Of a stretch of DNA of 39,873 nt, positions 10,244 through 29,351 are shown piece by piece. Positions within the stretch are counted from its first letter, which is position 1, and the number at the start of each line of letters is the position of its first letter. The stretch is from positions 1 to 39,873 of IMG/VR virus record IMGVR_UViG_3300007734_000677; one strand, 5' to 3'. A model generated the notes under the pieces. It did not search any database. It was not told the origin of the DNA and saw only the letters and a list, made by a program, of their open reading frames with translations. This stretch comes from a virus. Position numbers and translations under genes: made by a program.

Positions 10244-10266
10244 ACGCTATCTCCGGTTTACTAGGG

Positions 10267-10340
10267 GGGACTGTGCGGGACTCGAACCCGCATTCGACGG
10301 TTTATCTGTCCGTCATTCTATCCAGTTGAACTAACAGTCC
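10267..10340 (-). tRNA. tRNA-like gene, apparent anticodon GAT, with a non-canonical anticodon loop
   Basis: The minus strand folds as a 74-base cloverleaf. The acceptor stem is GGACTGT/ACAGTCC, extended by two further G-C pairs outside it. Bases 8-9 are TA. The D arm is GTTC-AACTGGATA-GAAT with the conserved GG. The T arm is GCGGG-TTCGAGT-CCCGC with a perfect T-loop, and the variable loop is CGAAT. The anticodon arm is ACGGA-CAGATAA-ACCGT: the last stem pair is A-A, and position 33 is A instead of the nearly universal T. Bases 34-36 read GAT (Ile). CCA is not encoded. It lies 24 bases before the small terminase gene, apparently in its leader. It may be a degenerate or specialised tRNA, and decoding ability is uncertain. 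Confidence 0.75.
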
Positions 10341-10354
10341 CCACTTGAGGCAGT

Positions 10355-14931: not shown

Positions 14932-15363
14932 ATGGAAGAAAGTGAATTGTACCAAGCAGCAACTAATAGCCTAGCATCTGATGCGAGTAGTGAAAATTGC
15001 TACTCCAAGATGGCTAACGAAACTAACGGCTATTGTGGAGATTACAAAAGCTTTGAGAGAGACCTCAAAAGCATTGAGGTTCGTATTAAGTCTGAGTACA
15101 AAATTACGTACATGCCTAGTGCGTGGCGTAGTGCCAAGAGTGTTTTGGTTAAATGTATGAAAGGTGGTGTTGCCATATTCAACAGCAATGACACTCTGAA
15201 AGGCAAAACTGAACTTCAAAATGAATTGAAAAACGATGTTTCGGCAGTTGGAAAGTATGCTACGTGTGAAAAACATGTTCATTTAGCATCTAGACTTTTC
15301 AAGTTTTTGTCTTTAACTGAACAAGCTGTAATTAAAAACCTCATTAACGACACATTTAAATAA
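14932..15363 (+). CDS. Unknown protein upstream of the CobT/CobS-like pair (143 aa)
   Basis: Helical and Lys-rich: MEESELYQAATNSLASDASS, FERDLKSIEVRIKSEYKI, then SAWRSAKSVLVKCMKGGVAI, and a C-terminal SLTEQAVIKNLINDTFK. GAGGT precedes the ATG. The gene ends one base before the CobT-like gene, which lacks its own clear ribosome site, so expression of the pair may depend on translation of this gene. It might be a third component of that module, though nothing in its sequence proves this. Confidence 0.55.
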   Translation: MEESELYQAATNSLASDASSENCYSKMANETNGYCGDYKSFERDLKSIEVRIKSEYKITYMPSAWRSAKSVLVKCMKGGVAIFNSNDTLKGKTELQNELKNDVSAVGKYATCEKHVHLASRLFKFLSLTEQAVIKNLINDTFK

Positions 15364-15364
15364 A

Positions 15365-17161
15365 ATGATAACCAATTCCATAGAGGTAATGAAGTACGTA
15401 AAAGCCTCTGCCGGGAGAAGCAAGTTATCTGTTGTTTTTGAAGATAAGAATCATCCCCGGCATGACGGTTCTACTATATATCTACCAAAGATAACTGTTC
15501 ACACTACCAAAGAACAGTTGTTAGAGATGATGTCTAGTGTTGACCATGAAGTAGGTCATGATTTGGATAGTGACTTTGAAATTCTCAAAGAAAAGGGTAT
15601 TGATGCTTCCAGCAGTTCGTTAGGACTGATTTGGAATATCTTAGAAGATTCAAGGGTTAATTACCTTCAAGCAGTAGAGTATGAGGGTTTCAGGGAACTC
15701 TGGGAGAAAACAACTCCTAAGCTGCTAAAGAAAATAGATGAAAGCACCAAGAAACCTGAAGGCATTAACCCACTAATCCGAGCCATAATGAAATGGGAAC
15801 ATAATTTGTCACGTAAAACATTCCCACTTTGTGCAGAAGCTGTTCGAGACATTGAAGTTGACGCTAGTATTTATACAAAGTTGCTTCCATTCTCAGACAG
15901 GTTAGTGAGTGTTCAGAAAGTTAAACCCAAAGTTGAAGGCACCAAGAGTGCTTGGGAGCTTGCTAGGGATATCTTCAGGGCTTTAGGTGGAGATCCCGAC
16001 GAAGAAGAACGTAAAGCAAAAGAAAAGAAAAAAGAAAAAGCATATAGCGGTAGAGGCACTCTCAAAGAAGTCTTTTCTGACGAAGATGAAGAAGATGTAA
16101 AGAAGCCTGTAGAGGATAAAAGTGAAGAAGATGGAGAAGAAGCAGAAGATGACAAGGATTGGTCTATAGTCCGTGTTAAACCTGAAGACATGAAAGACGT
16201 TGCAGACAAGCTTTTGTCCCTAGACAGCGTGGATCGTAAGAAGATGTCCAAGGTAGGTCTGTTGTATGAAGTAGATGACTTGGAAGATGGTTGGACAATG
16301 ACTGCTTTAGAAGATTTTATTGTTGTAGATTACTGCAATAAAACTGTTAGCCACCCTGAAGTTGTAGATCTTTTGAGTGATAGTAGCAATGAATACTTTC
16401 TAAACAGTATTACAACTAGAGCTAGTGTGTTAGCACAAGAGAACTTTGCAAACCAAGTTCGCAGGTTGATTCAAATCAGGGCTAAATCCAATTTTGAATA
16501 TGGTGTAAAGCGTGGTAAATTGGATTCTAGTCGATTGAGTCGTGTTGCTCTTAGACAACCGGGCTTTAGTGAGCGTGTGTTTAAGAACAAAATCAACAAT
16601 ACTGTTTTGGATGCTTCAGTATCTATTCTTGTTGACATGAGTGGGTCTATGAGTGGTGATAAAGTACTTTTTGCCACTCAAGCAGCTTTGTTGCTCAACG
16701 ATGTGTTCCAAGTGATCCAAGTTCCTTTGGAAATCATTGGGTTTACAGACAACGGCGATAGGCCAATACAATATCTGTATAAACCTTTTAATAAACACAA
16801 GGTAGTGCGGGAGCAGTTGTTAAATTATTTTGCAAGTAGCAGTCACTGCATGAGTGGAAATCCAGACGGTGACAGCATTATTTGGGCTTATGATCGCATT
16901 AAAAATAGAACAGAAAAGAAGAAGCTTCTTATTGTAATGTCTGATGGGCAACCAGCAGCTTCTAGGTACAATAAAGGCTTGGGTAAGTTTACAAAGCAAA
17001 CTGTTAAAGAAATTGAAGCTTCTAGAGTTGAGATTTATGGGTTGGGTCTTTGTGATGAATCTGTTGCAGGATATTACAAACACCACTCAACAGTAAAAAC
17101 AGCAAATGAAATACCACAGAAACTCCTAGAACTTATTGATAGGAAATTATTCCATGTCTGA
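15365..17161 (+). CDS. cobT: CobT-like VWA-domain protein with N-terminal HEXXH metallopeptidase-like motif
   Basis: 598 residues. The N-terminal part has HEVGH at 61-65 followed about 26 residues later by NILEDSRVNYLQ (Glu 94), the spacing of a zinc-peptidase-like helix pair. CobT proteins have a comparable E.xRVE helix. Residues about 210-265 form a very acidic, Lys-interrupted linker (for example SDEDEEDVKKPVEDKSEEDG), also a CobT trait. The C-terminal VWA domain has the metal-binding MIDAS residues: DMSGSMS with Asp 424, Ser 426 and Ser 428, Thr 461 in GFT, and Asp 527 in MSDGQP; NPDGDSIIWAYDRI is typical of CobT. In cobaltochelatase, CobT works with the AAA+ subunit CobS to drive cobalt insertion by CobN. 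The CobS-like gene overlaps its end by 8 bases. No CobN is present, so the target is open. Confidence 0.8.
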   Translation: MITNSIEVMKYVKASAGRSKLSVVFEDKNHPRHDGSTIYLPKITVHTTKEQLLEMMSSVDHEVGHDLDSDFEILKEKGIDASSSSLGLIWNILEDSRVNYLQAVEYEGFRELWEKTTPKLLKKIDESTKKPEGINPLIRAIMKWEHNLSRKTFPLCAEAVRDIEVDASIYTKLLPFSDRLVSVQKVKPKVEGTKSAWELARDIFRALGGDPDEEERKAKEKKKEKAYSGRGTLKEVFSDEDEEDVKKPVEDKSEEDGEEAEDDKDWSIVRVKPEDMKDVADKLLSLDSVDRKKMSKVGLLYEVDDLEDGWTMTALEDFIVVDYCNKTVSHPEVVDLLSDSSNEYFLNSITTRASVLAQENFANQVRRLIQIRAKSNFEYGVKRGKLDSSRLSRVALRQPGFSERVFKNKINNTVLDASVSILVDMSGSMSGDKVLFATQAALLLNDVFQVIQVPLEIIGFTDNGDRPIQYLYKPFNKHKVVREQLLNYFASSSHCMSGNPDGDSIIWAYDRIKNRTEKKKLLIVMSDGQPAASRYNKGLGKFTKQTVKEIEASRVEIYGLGLCDESVAGYYKHHSTVKTANEIPQKLLELIDRKLFHV

Positions 17162-18350
17162 TCTAAGTACTAAATCCCTTGGCGAACTACTTAAGGAAAC
17201 GCTTATGACCTCACCAGTTACTCCTCCTCCCATTGAAGACTTGGTTAAGTCTGCAATCAAGGATGCTTTGGCTAAACGCACACTAGCTGAAGGCAGCAAA
17301 GAATTTGCAACTGATGACACAACTATGGATTCATTGCATGCAATGGAAAAGTCTCTAGAACCTACTCCCGTAACAGAAGTTGTTCCTAAACACACACTGA
17401 AAGACGGTCAAATGTGGGCTTCAGATCTCTTCAAACGGATATTAAGCATATCCAAAAAAGATGATTTTCCTGTTTCAGTCTTCAAGCCCGAAGACTTTGA
17501 TGAGAGGATCAGGATGTTTATTCCCAAAGTTGATCCTACCTACGTTCTTGATAAGAAGAACAGCATCAACATCTTGAAAGGCTGGGAACAGAATGACAAA
17601 ACGTTGCTCTATGGCCCGACTGGAGCAGGTAAGAGCAGCCTTCCACAAATGTTGTGTGCTTACGTATGTAGACCCTTCGTTCGTATCAACTGTACTGAAG
17701 ACATGGATAGCTCAATGATCTTTGGTCAATTGACTGCTTCTGATGGTTCTACACATTGGGAAGATGGTACTATTACTGAAGCTGTAAAGTACGGTGCTGT
17801 GTTTGCTTGGGATGAATGGGATGTTACCCCTCCGGGCATTGCAATGGGTCTCCAGTGGCTCTTGGAAGACGATGGCAAGCTGTTCTTGAAAGAGAAGCCG
17901 GGAGCTGCCAAAGACAAGTTCATTGTTCCTGATAACAAGTTTCGCCTTATGGCTCTTGGTAACACCCAAGGTCAAGGTGATGACACTGGACAGCACACAG
18001 GTACCAACGTACAGAATACAGCTACAATTGACCGTTTTGGTACTACACTTCGCATTGGCTATATGAAGGAAGATGTGGAAGTTAAGATGCTCTGTGGTAA
18101 GTTTTCTGACATTGCTAAAGAGACTGTTCTTAAGCTGGTTAGGTTTGCCAATCTGGTTCGTCAGGGTTATACGACAGGCCAATTGAACCTTACCATGTCT
18201 CCAAGGTCTACTATCGGTATCTGCAAAAAGTTATCTTACGGACACACCATGCAAGAAGCAATTCAGCTTACCTACACAAACAAACTGGTGGAAACTCACC
18301 AAAAGGTAGCAATGGAACTGTATCGCAAAGTGTTTGGCTCGGCTGAGTAA
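17154..18350 (+). CDS. cobS: CobS-like MoxR-family AAA+ ATPase
   Basis: The start is ATG 17154 (AGGA upstream). A TTG at 17136 is less likely. In the 398-residue protein, residues 1-130 are a less conserved N-terminal part. The ATPase core has Walker A GPTGAGKS (154-161), a Walker B segment AVFAWDEWD (Asp 220, Glu 221) followed by LQWLLEDDGKL, the sensor region FRLMALGNTQGQGD and an arginine-bearing IDRFGTTL. The run from Walker B to DRF closely follows CobS of cobaltochelatase (FDEYD..., RVLE.DGK, FRL.ATANT.G.G, IDRW). MoxR ATPases usually act on a partner VWA protein, here the adjacent CobT-like gene. CobS homologues are also known in cyanophages. It likely forms a hexamer that remodels or loads metal into a client. 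Confidence 0.85.
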   Translation: MSDLSTKSLGELLKETLMTSPVTPPPIEDLVKSAIKDALAKRTLAEGSKEFATDDTTMDSLHAMEKSLEPTPVTEVVPKHTLKDGQMWASDLFKRILSISKKDDFPVSVFKPEDFDERIRMFIPKVDPTYVLDKKNSINILKGWEQNDKTLLYGPTGAGKSSLPQMLCAYVCRPFVRINCTEDMDSSMIFGQLTASDGSTHWEDGTITEAVKYGAVFAWDEWDVTPPGIAMGLQWLLEDDGKLFLKEKPGAAKDKFIVPDNKFRLMALGNTQGQGDDTGQHTGTNVQNTATIDRFGTTLRIGYMKEDVEVKMLCGKFSDIAKETVLKLVRFANLVRQGYTTGQLNLTMSPRSTIGICKKLSYGHTMQEAIQLTYTNKLVETHQKVAMELYRKVFGSAE

Positions 18351-18351
18351 C

Positions 18352-19215
18352 ATGATTTCACGCAGCATTATCTCCCCCATACTCAAAACTATGAGTGTGG
18401 GGGAACAAATTAAAGTCAACCACCTAGATTGTACGGCTGGTTTAGACACCAAACAACGACTCTATATCAAGAGAGTCCCTAGCGGTGGTGTGGCTTATTG
18501 CCACCACTGCAATCAATCTGGCTTTGTTAGGGAGCTAACTGCTGATGGTACAAAGCTCCGTAAATGGCTATTTGATAAACCCGATGGTGACATTATTAGA
18601 GTTACTAGGGGAGCTAGTGTGGGTTTACAAACTGATTTAGTTTGGACTAATCCCGAACATTTTTCTCCTCTTATTTGGTTGAGGAAATACCACATAGACG
18701 GGCAAAAAGAAAATGGATATTTTCAAACCAACGGAAAAGATCTGGTATTTCCCATAGCAGATGTTAATGGGGTAATTTTTGGTTCTCAAACTAGGTCGTT
18801 TAGTGGTGGTTCAAAGTACTTAACTAATTATGTTACTACAAACAGAACTAACGCCGCATGGTTTACTCTAAAAGAAGGTATGAGCCGAGTCTTAGTAATA
18901 ACTGAAGACTACACCAGTGCTTACAGAGTGTTTAGAGACTGTAACGTGGATTCTGTAGCGTTACTAAGAACAAGTGCTTCAGAAGAATTATTAAACACAA
19001 TTAGAGGCCAAGACTACAATAGAATAATTATTTGGTTAGATCCTGACGAAGCAGGTATTAAAGGGACTTTTACCTTAAAAACAAGGCTTAGGTTTGTTGT
19101 TGGTACCCACACTACCATCCATCCTATTGGAAAAGGAATTAGAGTTGAACCAAAAGAAATGGACAAAACAGCGTTAGCTTTAACTATTAGGAGCTTATCA
19201 TCGACTTTGATGTGA
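18352..19215 (+). CDS. DNA primase (TOPRIM, zinc-binding)
   Basis: The chosen ATG at 18352 comes directly after the CobS-like stop. The 287-residue protein has an N-terminal possible zinc site (Cys 27, then CHHC with Cys 50 and Cys 53, followed by the glycine/aromatic turn NQSGF). Its TOPRIM domain has VLVITEDYTSAYR (Glu 185), the serine-rich SVALLRTSAS strand and IIIWLDPDEAG (Asp 230, Asp 232), which bind metal during primer synthesis. This is the layout of the T7 gp4 primase half, here encoded apart from the helicase. It overlaps the helicase gene by 4 bases, consistent with the two proteins acting together at the fork. Product inferred with good confidence; primer specificity cannot be read. 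Confidence 0.85.
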   Translation: MISRSIISPILKTMSVGEQIKVNHLDCTAGLDTKQRLYIKRVPSGGVAYCHHCNQSGFVRELTADGTKLRKWLFDKPDGDIIRVTRGASVGLQTDLVWTNPEHFSPLIWLRKYHIDGQKENGYFQTNGKDLVFPIADVNGVIFGSQTRSFSGGSKYLTNYVTTNRTNAAWFTLKEGMSRVLVITEDYTSAYRVFRDCNVDSVALLRTSASEELLNTIRGQDYNRIIIWLDPDEAGIKGTFTLKTRLRFVVGTHTTIHPIGKGIRVEPKEMDKTALALTIRSLSSTLM

Positions 19216-20465
19216 TGTATTTGTGTGCCGAATCTCCTGAGAACTATTCAAAGTATCGGCACTATGTAAAAGACCATGTAGTACAACCCGAAACTGTTCT
19301 TATCTTGGACAAGATGGGTGACTATTACACCTTCTACCCTAGCTCTACTTTTGTTGATTGGGAAGCTTTCAGTAGTTTCCTGCTTGCTACTTATGCTATC
19401 AGGTTGTCTCCCGATAAGATCAGTATGCTTCGGGGTACGATAGTTAAGATGCAGACATTTACACCAACCATAGCCTACGAGCAGGTCATAAAAACCTTGA
19501 TTGAGATGGACTCACTGGCTTTGATTGCTGAAGAATGTCTTAAAGCCCGAGAAGGTACTTCAGATTTAGAAGCTATTAGTGAACTAACTACAAAGGCTCT
19601 TAAAGATGTCGAAAGATTTATTGATAAAAAAGACCTTTTTGTCGTTCCTGATATTTCTGGTGTTGTTGATCGCATATTGTCTACGGGATACCAGTGGAGA
19701 CTTATGCCTCTTAACCGGAGCTTGGGTCTTGTTAGATCTGGTGACTTTGTTATTGTTGCTGCAAGAGTCGAAGTTGGAAAAACTACGTTCTTGGCTAGTG
19801 AAGTAAGCTTTATTGCTCCCCAACTCCCCAAAGACCGACCTGTAATCTGGGTTAACAACGAGGAGAAGAGCGACAGCGTGTTCTTCAGGGTTGTACAAGC
19901 AACACTAGGAAAAACAACCAAAGAAATCATGGCAGACCACACCACAGCCATGAAAGACTACACAGCAGCAATGGGTGGTGACAAGAACAAGATTTTAATC
20001 ACAGACGGACACACCAACAACGTAAAGACCCTAGACGCCTTGTTTAAAGAAGTTAAACCCGGACTGATTGTGTTTGATGTCTTGGATAAGGTTGATGGCT
20101 TTAAGAACGACGAACGTGAAGACATCCGCCTCGGAAAACTTTACAAGTGGGCTAGGGACTGGGCTAGGCAAGACTGTGTAGTAATAGCAGCCAGTCAGTT
20201 GTCTGGTGAAGCTGAGATGCACAAAGATCCACCCTACATAGGCATGGATAGTCTCCGGGGTAGTAAGACAGACAAACCCGGAGAAGCTGATGCAATTATC
20301 ACGTTGGGTAAGTACAAAGAACCAGCTAATGATGATGAAGCAATGACAAGAACCATCAACGTTCCTAAGAACAAGTTACCGGGTGGTGGAGCTGACCAGA
20401 TGGAGTCAGAACGCCACGGACGGTACTTGGTAAGAATTGATCCCTTGAGGGCACGATATGAGTGA
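19212..20465 (+). CDS. Replicative DNA helicase (DnaB/T7 gp4-like RecA fold)
   Basis: 417 residues. An N-terminal helical part (about 1-140) precedes the RecA-like core: Walker A ARVEVGKTTF (184-193), Walker B LIVFDVLD (285-292), a motif VVIAASQLSG (about 330-339) and a C-terminal arginine-rich end (YLVRIDPLRARYE). The ARxExGKT form of Walker A occurs in phage helicases in which the first glycine is replaced. The enzyme would unwind DNA as a hexamer ahead of the family A polymerase. Primase is encoded just upstream as a separate protein, unlike the fused T7 gp4. The start overlaps the primase stop (ATGTGATG region). Confidence 0.88.
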   Translation: MMYLCAESPENYSKYRHYVKDHVVQPETVLILDKMGDYYTFYPSSTFVDWEAFSSFLLATYAIRLSPDKISMLRGTIVKMQTFTPTIAYEQVIKTLIEMDSLALIAEECLKAREGTSDLEAISELTTKALKDVERFIDKKDLFVVPDISGVVDRILSTGYQWRLMPLNRSLGLVRSGDFVIVAARVEVGKTTFLASEVSFIAPQLPKDRPVIWVNNEEKSDSVFFRVVQATLGKTTKEIMADHTTAMKDYTAAMGGDKNKILITDGHTNNVKTLDALFKEVKPGLIVFDVLDKVDGFKNDEREDIRLGKLYKWARDWARQDCVVIAASQLSGEAEMHKDPPYIGMDSLRGSKTDKPGEADAIITLGKYKEPANDDEAMTRTINVPKNKLPGGGADQMESERHGRYLVRIDPLRARYE

Positions 20466-21382: not shown

Positions 21383-21494
21383 TTACTTTTATAGTTTGGA
21401 TATGTTGTTGTCTTATGCGTCTCAATCTAAACTTCAATTTTTGATACCAGTACAGCTTATTAGGCAAGAATTGTGTAACGAAGAGAACCAGTGA
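21375..21494 (+). CDS. Very small protein between endolysin and polymerase (39 aa)
   Basis: An ATG at 21375, inside the endolysin end, opens 39 codons: MLDYFYSLDMLLSYASQSK and LQFLIPVQLIRQELCNEENQ. Its TGA overlaps the polymerase ATG (TGATG). The continuous overlap at both ends is the main evidence that it is translated. It has an amphipathic, Leu-rich helical pattern but no clear membrane segment. It may simply couple translation of the polymerase. Confidence 0.45.
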   Translation: MLDYFYSLDMLLSYASQSKLQFLIPVQLIRQELCNEENQ

Positions 21495-23467
21495 TGGATG
21501 AACTGCTGTTAACAGTAATAGATGTAGAGACTACTCTCAATGCTCCTAAAGAGATTGGAAGTAGCCACCCCATGTATTATGACAACAGGGCTGTGTATAT
21601 TGGTGTTCTTGATAGTGAATCTAAACTACCTGCTTTTTGGGTATTTGATGAAAAGCGTTGTGCATTAATGCTTCGTAAAAAGTCTGACTTTTTGGTTGGT
21701 TGTAATCTGTCCTTTGATCTTTGCTATATGTATCGCAGAAATCCGCTCTTTAAAACACTACTACAAAAGAAACGTCTTTGGGATATTCAGTTGGCTGAGT
21801 ACTTGTTATCTGGTCAAACTGAGAAGTGGCCTTCTTTGGATAGGATGTCTGTAAAGTACGGTTATCCAGTCAAAGACGACACAATAACCAAAATGTTTGA
21901 AGCTGGTATTGGAGCTGACAAGATCCCAGAAGATCTCATCAAACCCTATCTCCTCCAAGACCTACAAAATACATTGAGAATAGCTGAGCAACAGATTGCC
22001 AAAGTAGTTAGTTTGGGTATGATGGATCTTGTCATATCTCAAATGGAAGCTTTGCACTGCGTGACTGAGATGATGTACAACGGCATGAATGTTGATTTTA
22101 AATACTTTTCCAAGTACGCCAGTGAAGTTGCCACAGATTATGCTGATGTACAGTATAGGCTTAATGTTGCTGTTGAAGGAATTCATGCTAGGTACTTTCC
22201 TCTTACTGATATCGACAGTTCTTTGCAGTGGAGCAAGGTGTTGTTTGGCGGAGTTAGTAAAGTAGTAGAAAAAGAAGCTGCTGGGTTCTACAAGAATGGT
22301 AAACCTAAGTTTAAAAATGTTACTAAAAACATTGCTTATGCTGCATTTTCTACTGTAATTGCCAAAGAGGAATGGAAGTCTGAAAAGACTGGTAAAGTGT
22401 CAGTAGATGAAGAAGTACTTCAACACATAGTGTTAACTGACACAATCCCTCAAGTCAGGGATGTAGTATCTTTGTTGTTAGAGTATAGAGAAATAACTAA
22501 ACAACTAACAACATATATACAAGGACTAGGTAAACATGTAATAAGAAATAAAACACAAGACTATATATATAGTAGAATAAACCAAGTAACAACAGCAACA
22601 GGAAGACTAAGCAGCACATCACCAAACATACAAAACATAAGCAACAACCCAATTAAAGCAATCTTTACTAGCAGGTATGAAGATGGTTACTTGGTTGAAT
22701 TTGACTTTAAACAACTTGAGGTAGCTGTACTAGCCCACCTTACCAAATGCAAACAACTGATAGCTGACATAGCAGGTGGTGCAGACATTCACAATGAACT
22801 ATACAAAGAGATGAATGGCAGGTACCCTGATGCAGCTACTAGGAAGTGGTTTAAACGTCTTACCTTTGGTTTGATTTATGGTGCTGGTGCTAAGACTCTT
22901 GCTGTTCAAGCTGGTTGTAGTCTTGATGTAGCTAAGAAGTTTGTTTCTACTTTTTATACTAGGTACCCTGAAGTCAAGAATTGGAATTTAATCATGGAAA
23001 TCTCTGCCAATTCCAAGGGGATTCATCTATCAACACCAGAAGGACTTACCAGCATCACTCGGCAATGGAAGCATGTTTCAGAGACCAAAAGGATCTACAC
23101 CTTCCACGAATATAAATCCAAATATGAGGGAACTAGAGACTATACTTTCAGTCCAACTGAGCTGAAGAATTATCCGGTTCAAGGTTTGGCTACAGGTGAT
23201 ATTGTTCCTTTGATGTTGGGTATTGTGTTTAGGGAACTTATTGATACTTCTGAAGTCAAACTCATCAATACGATCCACGATTCAATCTTGTTGGATTGTA
23301 GTAATAAAGCTGTTTTAGATGGTGTTATTGAGAAGGTAAAAAGGTTGTTGGATAATGCTCACAACTATTATCAAATGACCTTTGGAATCCCGTTGGCTCT
23401 GAAGCTTAGCGCAGGAGTTTCAATGGGAAAGAACTGGTTTGAAATGAAAGAACTGGAGGAAGTATAA
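21494..23467 (+). CDS. Family A DNA polymerase with 3'-5' exonuclease (T7-like)
   Basis: The ATG at 21494 overlaps the preceding TGA; a GTG one codon earlier is less likely. 657 residues. Exonuclease motifs: VIDVETT (Asp 10, Glu 12), NLSFDL (Asp 75) and YLLQDLQNT (Asp 156). Polymerase motif A VEFDFKQLEVAVLA (Asp 404); motif B R450xxxK454xxxF458xxxY462 within FKRLTFGLIYG; motif C TIHDSILLD (His 595, Asp 596). All catalytic residues are intact. Phe at 458 is the residue linked in T7 and E. coli enzymes to discrimination against dideoxynucleotides. It replicates the phage genome with the neighbouring helicase and primase. A stretch at about 22480-22660 has strikingly A-rich codons unlike the rest. 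Confidence 0.95.
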   Translation: MDELLLTVIDVETTLNAPKEIGSSHPMYYDNRAVYIGVLDSESKLPAFWVFDEKRCALMLRKKSDFLVGCNLSFDLCYMYRRNPLFKTLLQKKRLWDIQLAEYLLSGQTEKWPSLDRMSVKYGYPVKDDTITKMFEAGIGADKIPEDLIKPYLLQDLQNTLRIAEQQIAKVVSLGMMDLVISQMEALHCVTEMMYNGMNVDFKYFSKYASEVATDYADVQYRLNVAVEGIHARYFPLTDIDSSLQWSKVLFGGVSKVVEKEAAGFYKNGKPKFKNVTKNIAYAAFSTVIAKEEWKSEKTGKVSVDEEVLQHIVLTDTIPQVRDVVSLLLEYREITKQLTTYIQGLGKHVIRNKTQDYIYSRINQVTTATGRLSSTSPNIQNISNNPIKAIFTSRYEDGYLVEFDFKQLEVAVLAHLTKCKQLIADIAGGADIHNELYKEMNGRYPDAATRKWFKRLTFGLIYGAGAKTLAVQAGCSLDVAKKFVSTFYTRYPEVKNWNLIMEISANSKGIHLSTPEGLTSITRQWKHVSETKRIYTFHEYKSKYEGTRDYTFSPTELKNYPVQGLATGDIVPLMLGIVFRELIDTSEVKLINTIHDSILLDCSNKAVLDGVIEKVKRLLDNAHNYYQMTFGIPLALKLSAGVSMGKNWFEMKELEEV

Positions 23468-27683: not shown

Positions 27684-29351
27684 ATGGAACATAATCGCTT
27701 TAAAACTAGTTTTTCAGAACGAATCTTCCGGCTCAAGTACGCTCAAGGTGTTAATGACACTTGGGATGCTTTGTCAGACAGGGTAGTTGACGATGTATGC
27801 GGGAGCCGTGGAGGTAAGGATCGCTCTTTAGTAAGCAAAGATGACCAGAAAGACTTAGCTGAAGCTATTAAGACCATGAAAATAATTCCCGGAGGGAGGT
27901 ACCTTTATTATGCAGGACGAGAATTCAGTGCCTTTAACAACTGCTACCTACTCAGGGCTGAAGAAGACACGCGAGAAGAGTGGGCAAACATTGTTCATAG
28001 AAGTATGTCTTGTCTATCTACTGGTGGCGGTATTGGTGTGGATTATAGTATCCTCCGTCCTGCTGGTAGAGTACTTAAACGGACGGGTGGTATATCGTCA
28101 GGCCCCATCCCTCTTATGCAAGCCGTCAATGAGATTGGGCGTAATGTAATGCAAGGTGGGAGCCGTAGGTCAGCCATCTACGCATCTCTCAACTGGCAAC
28201 ATGAAGACGTTCCCCTATTCCTCAAAGCCAAAGACTGGTCAGATGTTATTAAGAACCTTAAGGCTACGGACTTTAACTTCCCTGCACCGTTAGACATGAC
28301 TAACATCTCAGTAAACTATGATGATGCAGCACTAATTAGGGACGTAGGTCTAGCAGACGAGTACTGGCTACACAAGAATCCCATCTTCCTAGAGAACTGC
28401 AAGCAAGCCATGATGACGGGTGAACCGGGCTTTAGCTTTAACTTTGGAGACAAGCAGAATGAAACCCTGCGTAACGCCTGTACTGAAGTTACCAGCGAAG
28501 ATGACTCTGACGTTTGTAATCTTGCGAGCATCAATCTGGGCAATGTGGAAAGTCTGGAGGAATTCAAAGGGCTGGTTGCACTTGCATCAAAATTCCTCAT
28601 TTGTGGTACAATCAGAGCTGATCTACCCTACGAAAAAGTGTACAAAGTTAGAGAAAAGAATCGTCGCTTGGGACTTGGACTTATGGGTATCCACGAATGG
28701 CTCCTCAAGCGAGGATCTAAATATGAAGTAACGCCGGAACTTCACACTTGGTTAGGAGTCTATAGAGATGAATCAAAACGAGCAGCAGATGAACACGCCG
28801 AAAGACTTTTTGTCAGCCCTCCAGTTGCATATAGGGCAATTGCCCCCACTGGCAGCATCGGAATTCTTGCAGGTACTACTACTGGAATTGAGCCACTATT
28901 CGCTGTCGCTTACAAGAGGCGTTATCTTACCAATGGCACAAAATGGAAATTTGAGTTTGTTGTTGATGCCACCGCCGACAGTCTCATCAAGCGGTATAAT
29001 ATCGCCCCAGAGTCAATTGATACTGCCTACAAACTAAGCCATGACTACGAGCGACGACTTGCATTCCAAGCGGATGTTCAAGATTACGTGGACATGTCCA
29101 TTAGTTCTACCATCAACCTTCCCTCTTGGGGAACAAAAGATAACAACGAAGGAAAAATTGAACAGTTTGCTGGCACTCTTGCAAGATACGCCCCTAGACT
29201 GCGTGGATTTACGTGCTACCCTGACGGAGCTAGAGGAGGACAACCCCTCACTGAAGTCGAGTACGGAGATGCCATCAAGCACTCAGGAATAGTCTACGAA
29301 GAGAACGATATTTGTGACATAACGGGTAAAGGAGGATCATGTGGTGTCTAA
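27684..29351 (+). CDS. nrdJ: Class II (adenosylcobalamin-dependent) ribonucleotide reductase
   Basis: 555 residues, AAGGA before the ATG. Active-site residues fit an RNR alpha chain: Cys 87 in FNNCYLL and Cys 278 in DVCNLASINL (redox pair), thiyl Cys 266 in NACTE with Asn 264 and Glu 268, a glycine-rich LSTGGGIGVDYS (111-122), TGSIGILAGTTTGIEPLF, and a C-terminal Cys pair (544 and 553) for reduction by thioredoxin. No beta-subunit (NrdB) gene is next to it, and the two adjacent C-terminal Tyr typical of class I are absent, so class II with a B12 cofactor is the best reading. It makes deoxynucleotides from ribonucleotides for replication. It may depend on host cobalamin, which is notable beside the CobS/CobT-like genes. 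Confidence 0.85.
   Translation: MEHNRFKTSFSERIFRLKYAQGVNDTWDALSDRVVDDVCGSRGGKDRSLVSKDDQKDLAEAIKTMKIIPGGRYLYYAGREFSAFNNCYLLRAEEDTREEWANIVHRSMSCLSTGGGIGVDYSILRPAGRVLKRTGGISSGPIPLMQAVNEIGRNVMQGGSRRSAIYASLNWQHEDVPLFLKAKDWSDVIKNLKATDFNFPAPLDMTNISVNYDDAALIRDVGLADEYWLHKNPIFLENCKQAMMTGEPGFSFNFGDKQNETLRNACTEVTSEDDSDVCNLASINLGNVESLEEFKGLVALASKFLICGTIRADLPYEKVYKVREKNRRLGLGLMGIHEWLLKRGSKYEVTPELHTWLGVYRDESKRAADEHAERLFVSPPVAYRAIAPTGSIGILAGTTTGIEPLFAVAYKRRYLTNGTKWKFEFVVDATADSLIKRYNIAPESIDTAYKLSHDYERRLAFQADVQDYVDMSISSTINLPSWGTKDNNEGKIEQFAGTLARYAPRLRGFTCYPDGARGGQPLTEVEYGDAIKHSGIVYEENDICDITGKGGSCGV

Follow-up and report, generated by a model that had tools for sequence, protein, structure and literature searches.

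A three-gene cassette in a viral genome, encoding the small protein orf143, a zincin-like/VWA protein and a MoxR-clade ATPase, is read here, with confidence slightly better than even, as a phage machine that remodels proteins for the DNA-replication module and not as a cobaltochelatase helper. Such a machine is considered likelier than a vitamin B12 booster because a zinc-protease-type site is kept, a third gene is linked to the pair and replication genes are adjacent.

The pairing itself is not new, since CobST in phages has already been published: a cobST cluster is carried by tailed viruses that infect several host orders, cyanophages among them, and its genes were filed as cobaltochelatase subunits, with the cyanophage 'peptidase' annotation called a mistake (PMC8651126). 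Group 2.2 jumbo phages contain a MoxR–vWA pair with an N-terminal metallopeptidase, proposed to act in virion assembly (PMC7824862). The pair is thus already known in both forms, read as a B12 helper and as a virion-assembly machine, respectively; a limited literature search found no paper that joins these two reports, describes orf143 or points out the residue-level difference from CobT, and none that combines ICP2 and CobT. The general view of MoxR/VWA pairs is that the VWA site captures a client, which is then remodelled with ATP (PMC7159879).

Organization of the locus

The window, that is, the whole 39,873-nt stretch of IMG/VR record IMGVR_UViG_3300007734_000677 that was analysed, contains both open reading frames of the pair as described in the first-pass annotation. 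The 'CobT-like' protein of 598 residues (15365–17161, + strand) is composed of an N-terminal domain (residues 1–215; 15365–16009), an acidic linker (residues 227–307; 16043–16285) and a VWA half (16319–17158). It is followed by the 398-residue 'CobS-like' ATPase (17154–18350, + strand), whose reading frame spans 17136/17154–18350; the ATG at 17154, which has AGGA upstream, was taken as the start, and with this start the proposed 8-base overlap of the two genes is exact (ATGTCTGA at 17154–17161). The gene for orf143, a small unnamed protein of 143 residues (14932–15363, + strand), ends 1 base before the start of the VWA gene.

Directly downstream, a DNA primase gene of the Toprim type (18334–19215, + strand; phrog_47, E = 7.8e-21) overlaps the ATPase gene, and a DnaB-type replicative helicase (19212–20465, + strand; PF03796, E = 9.3e-13) belongs to the same operon, in agreement with the earlier assignment of the pair to a replication operon. 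A family A DNA polymerase (21491–23467, + strand; PF00476, E = 1.2e-54) is located in the same gene arm, and the structural genes of the window are on the strand opposite to the pair. The region that separates the two gene arms contains a tRNA-Ile (gat) gene (10264–10341, − strand). Profile searches of the record found no CobN, whose absence had been noted before, and no match to the CobT family PF06213.

Relationship of the two proteins to CobS and CobT

The ATPase carries Walker A (GPTGAGKS, residues 154–161), Walker B (WDEWD; D220, E221), GNT (N270), DRF (R294) and SPR (R351) motifs, as expected of a MoxR-clade AAA+ protein with intact Walker A and B, sensors and arginine finger. Residues G154, G157, G159, K160, D220, E221, N270, R294 and R351 do not vary among ten diverse phage ATPases. 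A profile search gave a match to PD_CobS (125.5 bits, E = 2.5e-36), and the best solved relative is CobS (9ujv, E = 4.9e-35), so that the description of the protein as a CobS-like MoxR ATPase stands; with respect to the equivalog TIGR01650, 125.5 bits is far below the cut-off of 558.55. The SSU5-like and Rhizobium-phage ATPases (L006, L008 and L009) have an N-terminal C..C...H...H zinc-finger-like segment, which the window protein does not contain.

The VWA protein matched CobT_C with 79.8 bits (E = 2.9e-22) and the equivalog TIGR01651 with 84.9 bits, far below the cut-off of 759.05. The profile matches of both proteins are far beyond chance and the trees agree with them, upholding the affinity to CobS/CobT that had been claimed. 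The MIDAS is intact, with D424, S426, S428, T461 and D527 where they had been placed; D424, S426, S428 and D527 are invariant among 164 aligned full-length homologues, rows that are not independent because some loci repeat one contig. The ATPase gene accordingly has as its neighbour a VWA protein with a MIDAS, the arrangement of a MoxR–VWA pair. In a structure search, the closest structures to the VWA half were the VWA of NorD bound to NorQ and the MIDAS of Rea1/MDN1 (midasin). Both systems likewise combine a MoxR-clade ATPase with a MIDAS-bearing VWA adaptor, although the matches cover the VWA half only and not the zincin-like domain. The client of NorQ/NorD is nitric oxide reductase, and that of Rea1 is the pre-60S ribosome. 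The linker proposed earlier is real: residues 227–307 are predicted to be disordered (pLDDT <50), and its first 42 residues include 18 acidic and 6 basic ones.

The AlphaFold2 model of the N-terminal domain is confident (pLDDT 95.1, pTM 0.90). A fold search of the model against the PDB gave no significant match, none being below E = 1; the most probable one, itself non-significant, was selecase (probability 0.72 over 71 columns, E = 2.4), which is a zincin. The best viral fold matches were other phage 'CobT' and VWA proteins. A profile match to AcrIIA26 (E = 4e-4, 49 residues around the N-ED motif) was treated as a chance acidic match.

A zinc-site motif kept in phage proteins and absent from CobT

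Two motifs in the N-terminal domain were overlooked in the first-pass annotation: HEVGH (residues 61–65; 15545–15559) and N91-x-x-E94-D95, in which E94 (E94–D95, 15644–15649) is the proposed third zinc ligand. Among the same 164 non-independent rows, H/E/H is found at the HEVGH positions in 136, E94 in 151 and D95 in 142, and the combination of HExxH with a conserved downstream glutamate in 136 homologues is consistent with a gluzincin-type site. Proteins keeping HExxH and E94 span the window's clade and the ICP2, SSU5-like, Kyanoviridae, Bacteroides and Cobavirinae types. HExxH is lost in 14 near-identical Acinetobacter plasmid copies (QE..K), in Nican01 (SE..K), in the ANB28 type (RE..T) and in bacterial outliers; in the first three groups E62 is kept despite the lost histidines, and the pair persists, which means that proteolysis is not essential in every lineage. 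As some lineages have lost the histidines, protease activity of the zincin-like domain is put at about even odds.

The comparison set for CobT comprised 27 CobT-type proteins from alphaproteobacterial genomes, picked by TIGR01651 and most of them above its cut-off. HExxH is missing from the first 300 residues of all 27; the phage 'DHEVGH' aligns opposite 'D[ASQG]xALR' of CobT, whereas E94 and R97 are retained in nearly every case. In having HExxH, the window protein differs from the cobaltochelatase type, for which a CobT N-domain with no zinc site is expected. The two kinds of domain are homologous nonetheless: hhalign aligned the phage N-domain with CobT N-domains at 98.1% (E = 5e-13), a second profile–profile run gave 93.4% (E = 2.4e-7), and PF06213 was matched by 40 of 70 phage N-domains. 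Because HExxH is absent, E94 and R97 are kept and the domains are homologous, the N-domain of CobT resembles a decayed form of the zincin-like domain kept by phages.

In the ATPase tree, the window falls with its relatives in a clade supported at 100/99, and cellular CobS, itself supported at 100/99, branches within the phage sequences, beside Cobavirinae/Roseobacter phages (94/86). The VWA tree has the same outline with weaker support (82/71). Deep order is not resolved in these trees, in which long branches were flagged, and they fix no direction of descent; loss of HExxH in CobT would be the simpler reading because the tree neighbours of CobT conserve the motif.

Conservation of the pair and its link to orf143

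Both genes are present, always on one strand, in 180 of 203 sequences (loci plus the window), with the VWA gene first in 151 of these two-gene loci and the ATPase gene first in 29. Loci with a single gene can be put down to contig ends, except for one divergent bacterial VWA locus (L198). The pair had been proposed as a coupled two-gene module, with the suggestion that homologues be checked for keeping both genes; this coupling is borne out, and retention of a single gene was not seen in close homologues. The 'CobS' of Alteromonas phage R22Y, published as an auxiliary metabolic gene (PMC11705849; L276, 20445–21218), was considered as a lone-CobS counterexample and was not counted, being a short AAA+ protein of 257 residues with a weak score of 36 bits to the CobS-like profile. 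Profile and MIDAS-motif searches of the first 60 kb of the 68-kb R22Y record found no VWA/CobT-like gene.

Within the window's clade, orf143 is located directly upstream of the VWA gene in 44 of the 45 loci with enough upstream sequence. Viral contigs searched with orf143 alone yielded 71 further loci, several of which are parts of contigs already seen; in all 71 the VWA gene comes next (gap −11 to +25) and its product has HExxH. The MoxR gene is present in 67 of them, and the other four end inside the VWA gene. orf143 is therefore a strictly linked third member of the cassette in this clade. Family, profile and structure searches with orf143 gave no significant match in Pfam, PHROG or the PDB.

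Replication genes beside the pair

A replication gene was found in 151 of the 180 pair loci, always on the same strand and at a median distance of 397 bp from the pair, a figure that describes recurrence and not unbiased enrichment because the query genes came from the same loci. In the window's clade and in ICP2, the neighbours are primase, helicase and a PolA-type polymerase; DnaE lies beside the pair in SSU5, Nican01, ANB28 and Rhizobium phages and in E. coli and Aeromonas plasmids, and gp46, gp45 and gp44 do so in cyanophages and a Pelagibacter phage. The synteny between the pair and replication genes thus spans lineages with unrelated polymerases. No replication gene was detected near the pair in the Roseobacter CRP-810 and Gordonia lineages. 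Proximity to replication genes implicates the pair by association alone, and such modules also house genes for nucleotide metabolism.

Cobalamin synthesis as an alternative

The published reading is an auxiliary metabolic one, in which viral CobST raises the cobalamin supply by recruiting host CobN or a mosaic chelatase, with a B12-dependent ribonucleotide reductase (RNR) as one possible user (PMC8651126). It draws on the real homology to CobS/CobT and on the RNR of the window (27684–29351, + strand), which is closest to class II NrdJ, at 200.9 bits against NrdJ_Z, below the cut-off of 400, in a record that contains no NrdB. An RNR without NrdB was also found in two relatives and in the Cobavirinae phage T5S1, which has the pair; cobaviruses were named for their class II RNR (PMC6775973). 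Across 40 pair-bearing viruses, however, 20 had no RNR match and 10 had class I NrdA plus NrdB, the class being assigned from the presence of NrdB, in a survey in which six matches were weak (below about 31 bits) and some virus records may be fragments. Most of the ~45-kb relatives in the window's clade are without any RNR, and few members have one. There is no consistent link between the pair and B12-dependent RNR.

The distribution of CobN is also unfavourable. The CobN search (PF02514) was positive in 5 of 14 control genomes and not in E. coli, yet an SSU5-like gene occurs in 219 of 5,426 complete E. coli genomes, always on plasmids. The search gave no CobN match in Buttiauxella, Kluyvera or three MAGs carrying phage-type genes either; the gene was present in two alphaproteobacterial carriers of the phage-type pair, Phyllobacterium and Ancylobacter. 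Of the two alternatives put forward in the first-pass annotation, a phage-specific remodelling machine is favoured and a helper recruiting host CobN is disfavoured, because CobN was not found in E. coli or most tested carriers, the pair is not tied to a class of RNR and the zinc-ligand set, including the HExxH that phage proteins keep, is absent from CobT (27 of 27 equivalog-model proteins). The helper reading is accordingly held to be quite improbable.

In cells, too, CobST genes need not mean cobaltochelatase, because, among 22 alphaproteobacterial genomes sampled, 9 have CobT above the cut-off with no CobN match (G040, G041, G046, G048, G051, G055, G062, G064 and G066), although drafts may be incomplete; this could reflect a role of cellular CobST outside B12 synthesis or a CobN missed in drafts. 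Locus L204 (genome G003) likewise has CobT above the equivalog cut-off and no CobN match.

Proposed mechanism and further alternatives

As a remodelling machine, the cassette would work through an ATP-driven hexamer of the MoxR protein, as expected from its family, with the VWA protein as adaptor, the MIDAS metal gripping an acidic residue of the client as in NorD and Rea1/midasin. The flexible acidic linker would give the N-terminal zincin-like domain access to the client, or allow it to dock on the MoxR ring, so as to cut or hold the client. In this clade, orf143 may be an obligate co-factor, or else the dedicated client or loader. PDB entry 21vu contains a CobT N-domain chain together with a CobS fragment, which suggests that the N-domain may dock on the ATPase. 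A more specific form of this proposal, rather unlikely as a whole, makes the cassette the phage counterpart of AAA+/metalloprotease fork clearance (SPRTN/Wss1 with p97/Cdc48): proteins would be pulled from phage DNA or replisomes by the MoxR motor with its VWA adaptor and cut by the zincin, and authentic cobaltochelatase CobST would be a derived branch whose zincin decayed to a docking domain.

The zincin–VWA protein with MoxR has the architecture described in jumbo phages, for which a chaperone and peptidase that folds or trims structural proteins during virion assembly or maturation was proposed (PMC7824862); the same paper cites an archaeal virus whose tail assembly requires a MoxR–vWA system with no peptidase. 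The position of the pair in a replication module, on the strand opposite to the structural genes of the window, and its adjacency to replication genes in several phage types make this role unlikely here. Location among early-type genes and the union of a zincin with an unfoldase would also suit a host-takeover or counter-defence machine that unfolds or cleaves a host protein blocking replication, and MoxR–vWA modules with peptidases do occur in conflict systems (PMC7159879). Near-universal retention and fixed clade synteny nevertheless look like a core function and not a patchy weapon, and a PADLOC search gave weak AAA+ matches and nothing further, so that counter-defence is regarded as distinctly unlikely. 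Maturation of the phage RNR or another metalloenzyme, as performed by NorQD and CbbQO, would fit NorD with NorQ as best structural neighbour of the VWA half, but is very improbable given that half of the 40 tested pair-bearing viruses have no RNR match.

Relation to known systems and implications

The genes studied here are of the same kind as the viral cobST genes (PMC8651126), a CobS-like AAA+ and a CobT-like VWA protein; the differences are that a peptidase-type motif is conserved in the phages and absent from CobT, and that the links to CobN and RNR fail. The metallopeptidase–vWA plus MoxR architecture is shared with the jumbo-phage pair (PMC7824862), whereas the pair described here belongs to ~45-kb phages with a T7-like replication module and to ~110-kb phage-plasmids, is tied to replication genes and has, in the window's clade, the extra linked gene orf143. 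Aerobic cobaltochelatase CobS/CobT (TIGR01650/TIGR01651; 9uka, 9ujv) is homologous in its ATPase, VWA and N-domain, with CobS nested among phage sequences; in contrast, the phage scores are far below the equivalog cut-offs, CobT is without HExxH, the phage is without CobN, and the cobaltochelatase gene order is ATPase first, opposite to that of most phage lineages.

Viral ecology papers count phage cobS and cobT as B12 auxiliary metabolic genes, and one lists cobS as 'Vitamin B12 synthesis' (PMC9983427). The presence or absence of HExxH offers a simple residue test by which most phage-type proteins can be told apart from the CobT proteins in this sample. If the phage genes encode zincin–VWA/MoxR machines, this widespread metabolic inference would be wrong and a common annotation would need correcting; the cassette would then represent a common, uncharacterised machine of phage replication modules that could be tested in E. 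coli K-12, a strain that lacks CobN and is the recorded host of Escherichia phage PhiR41_1.
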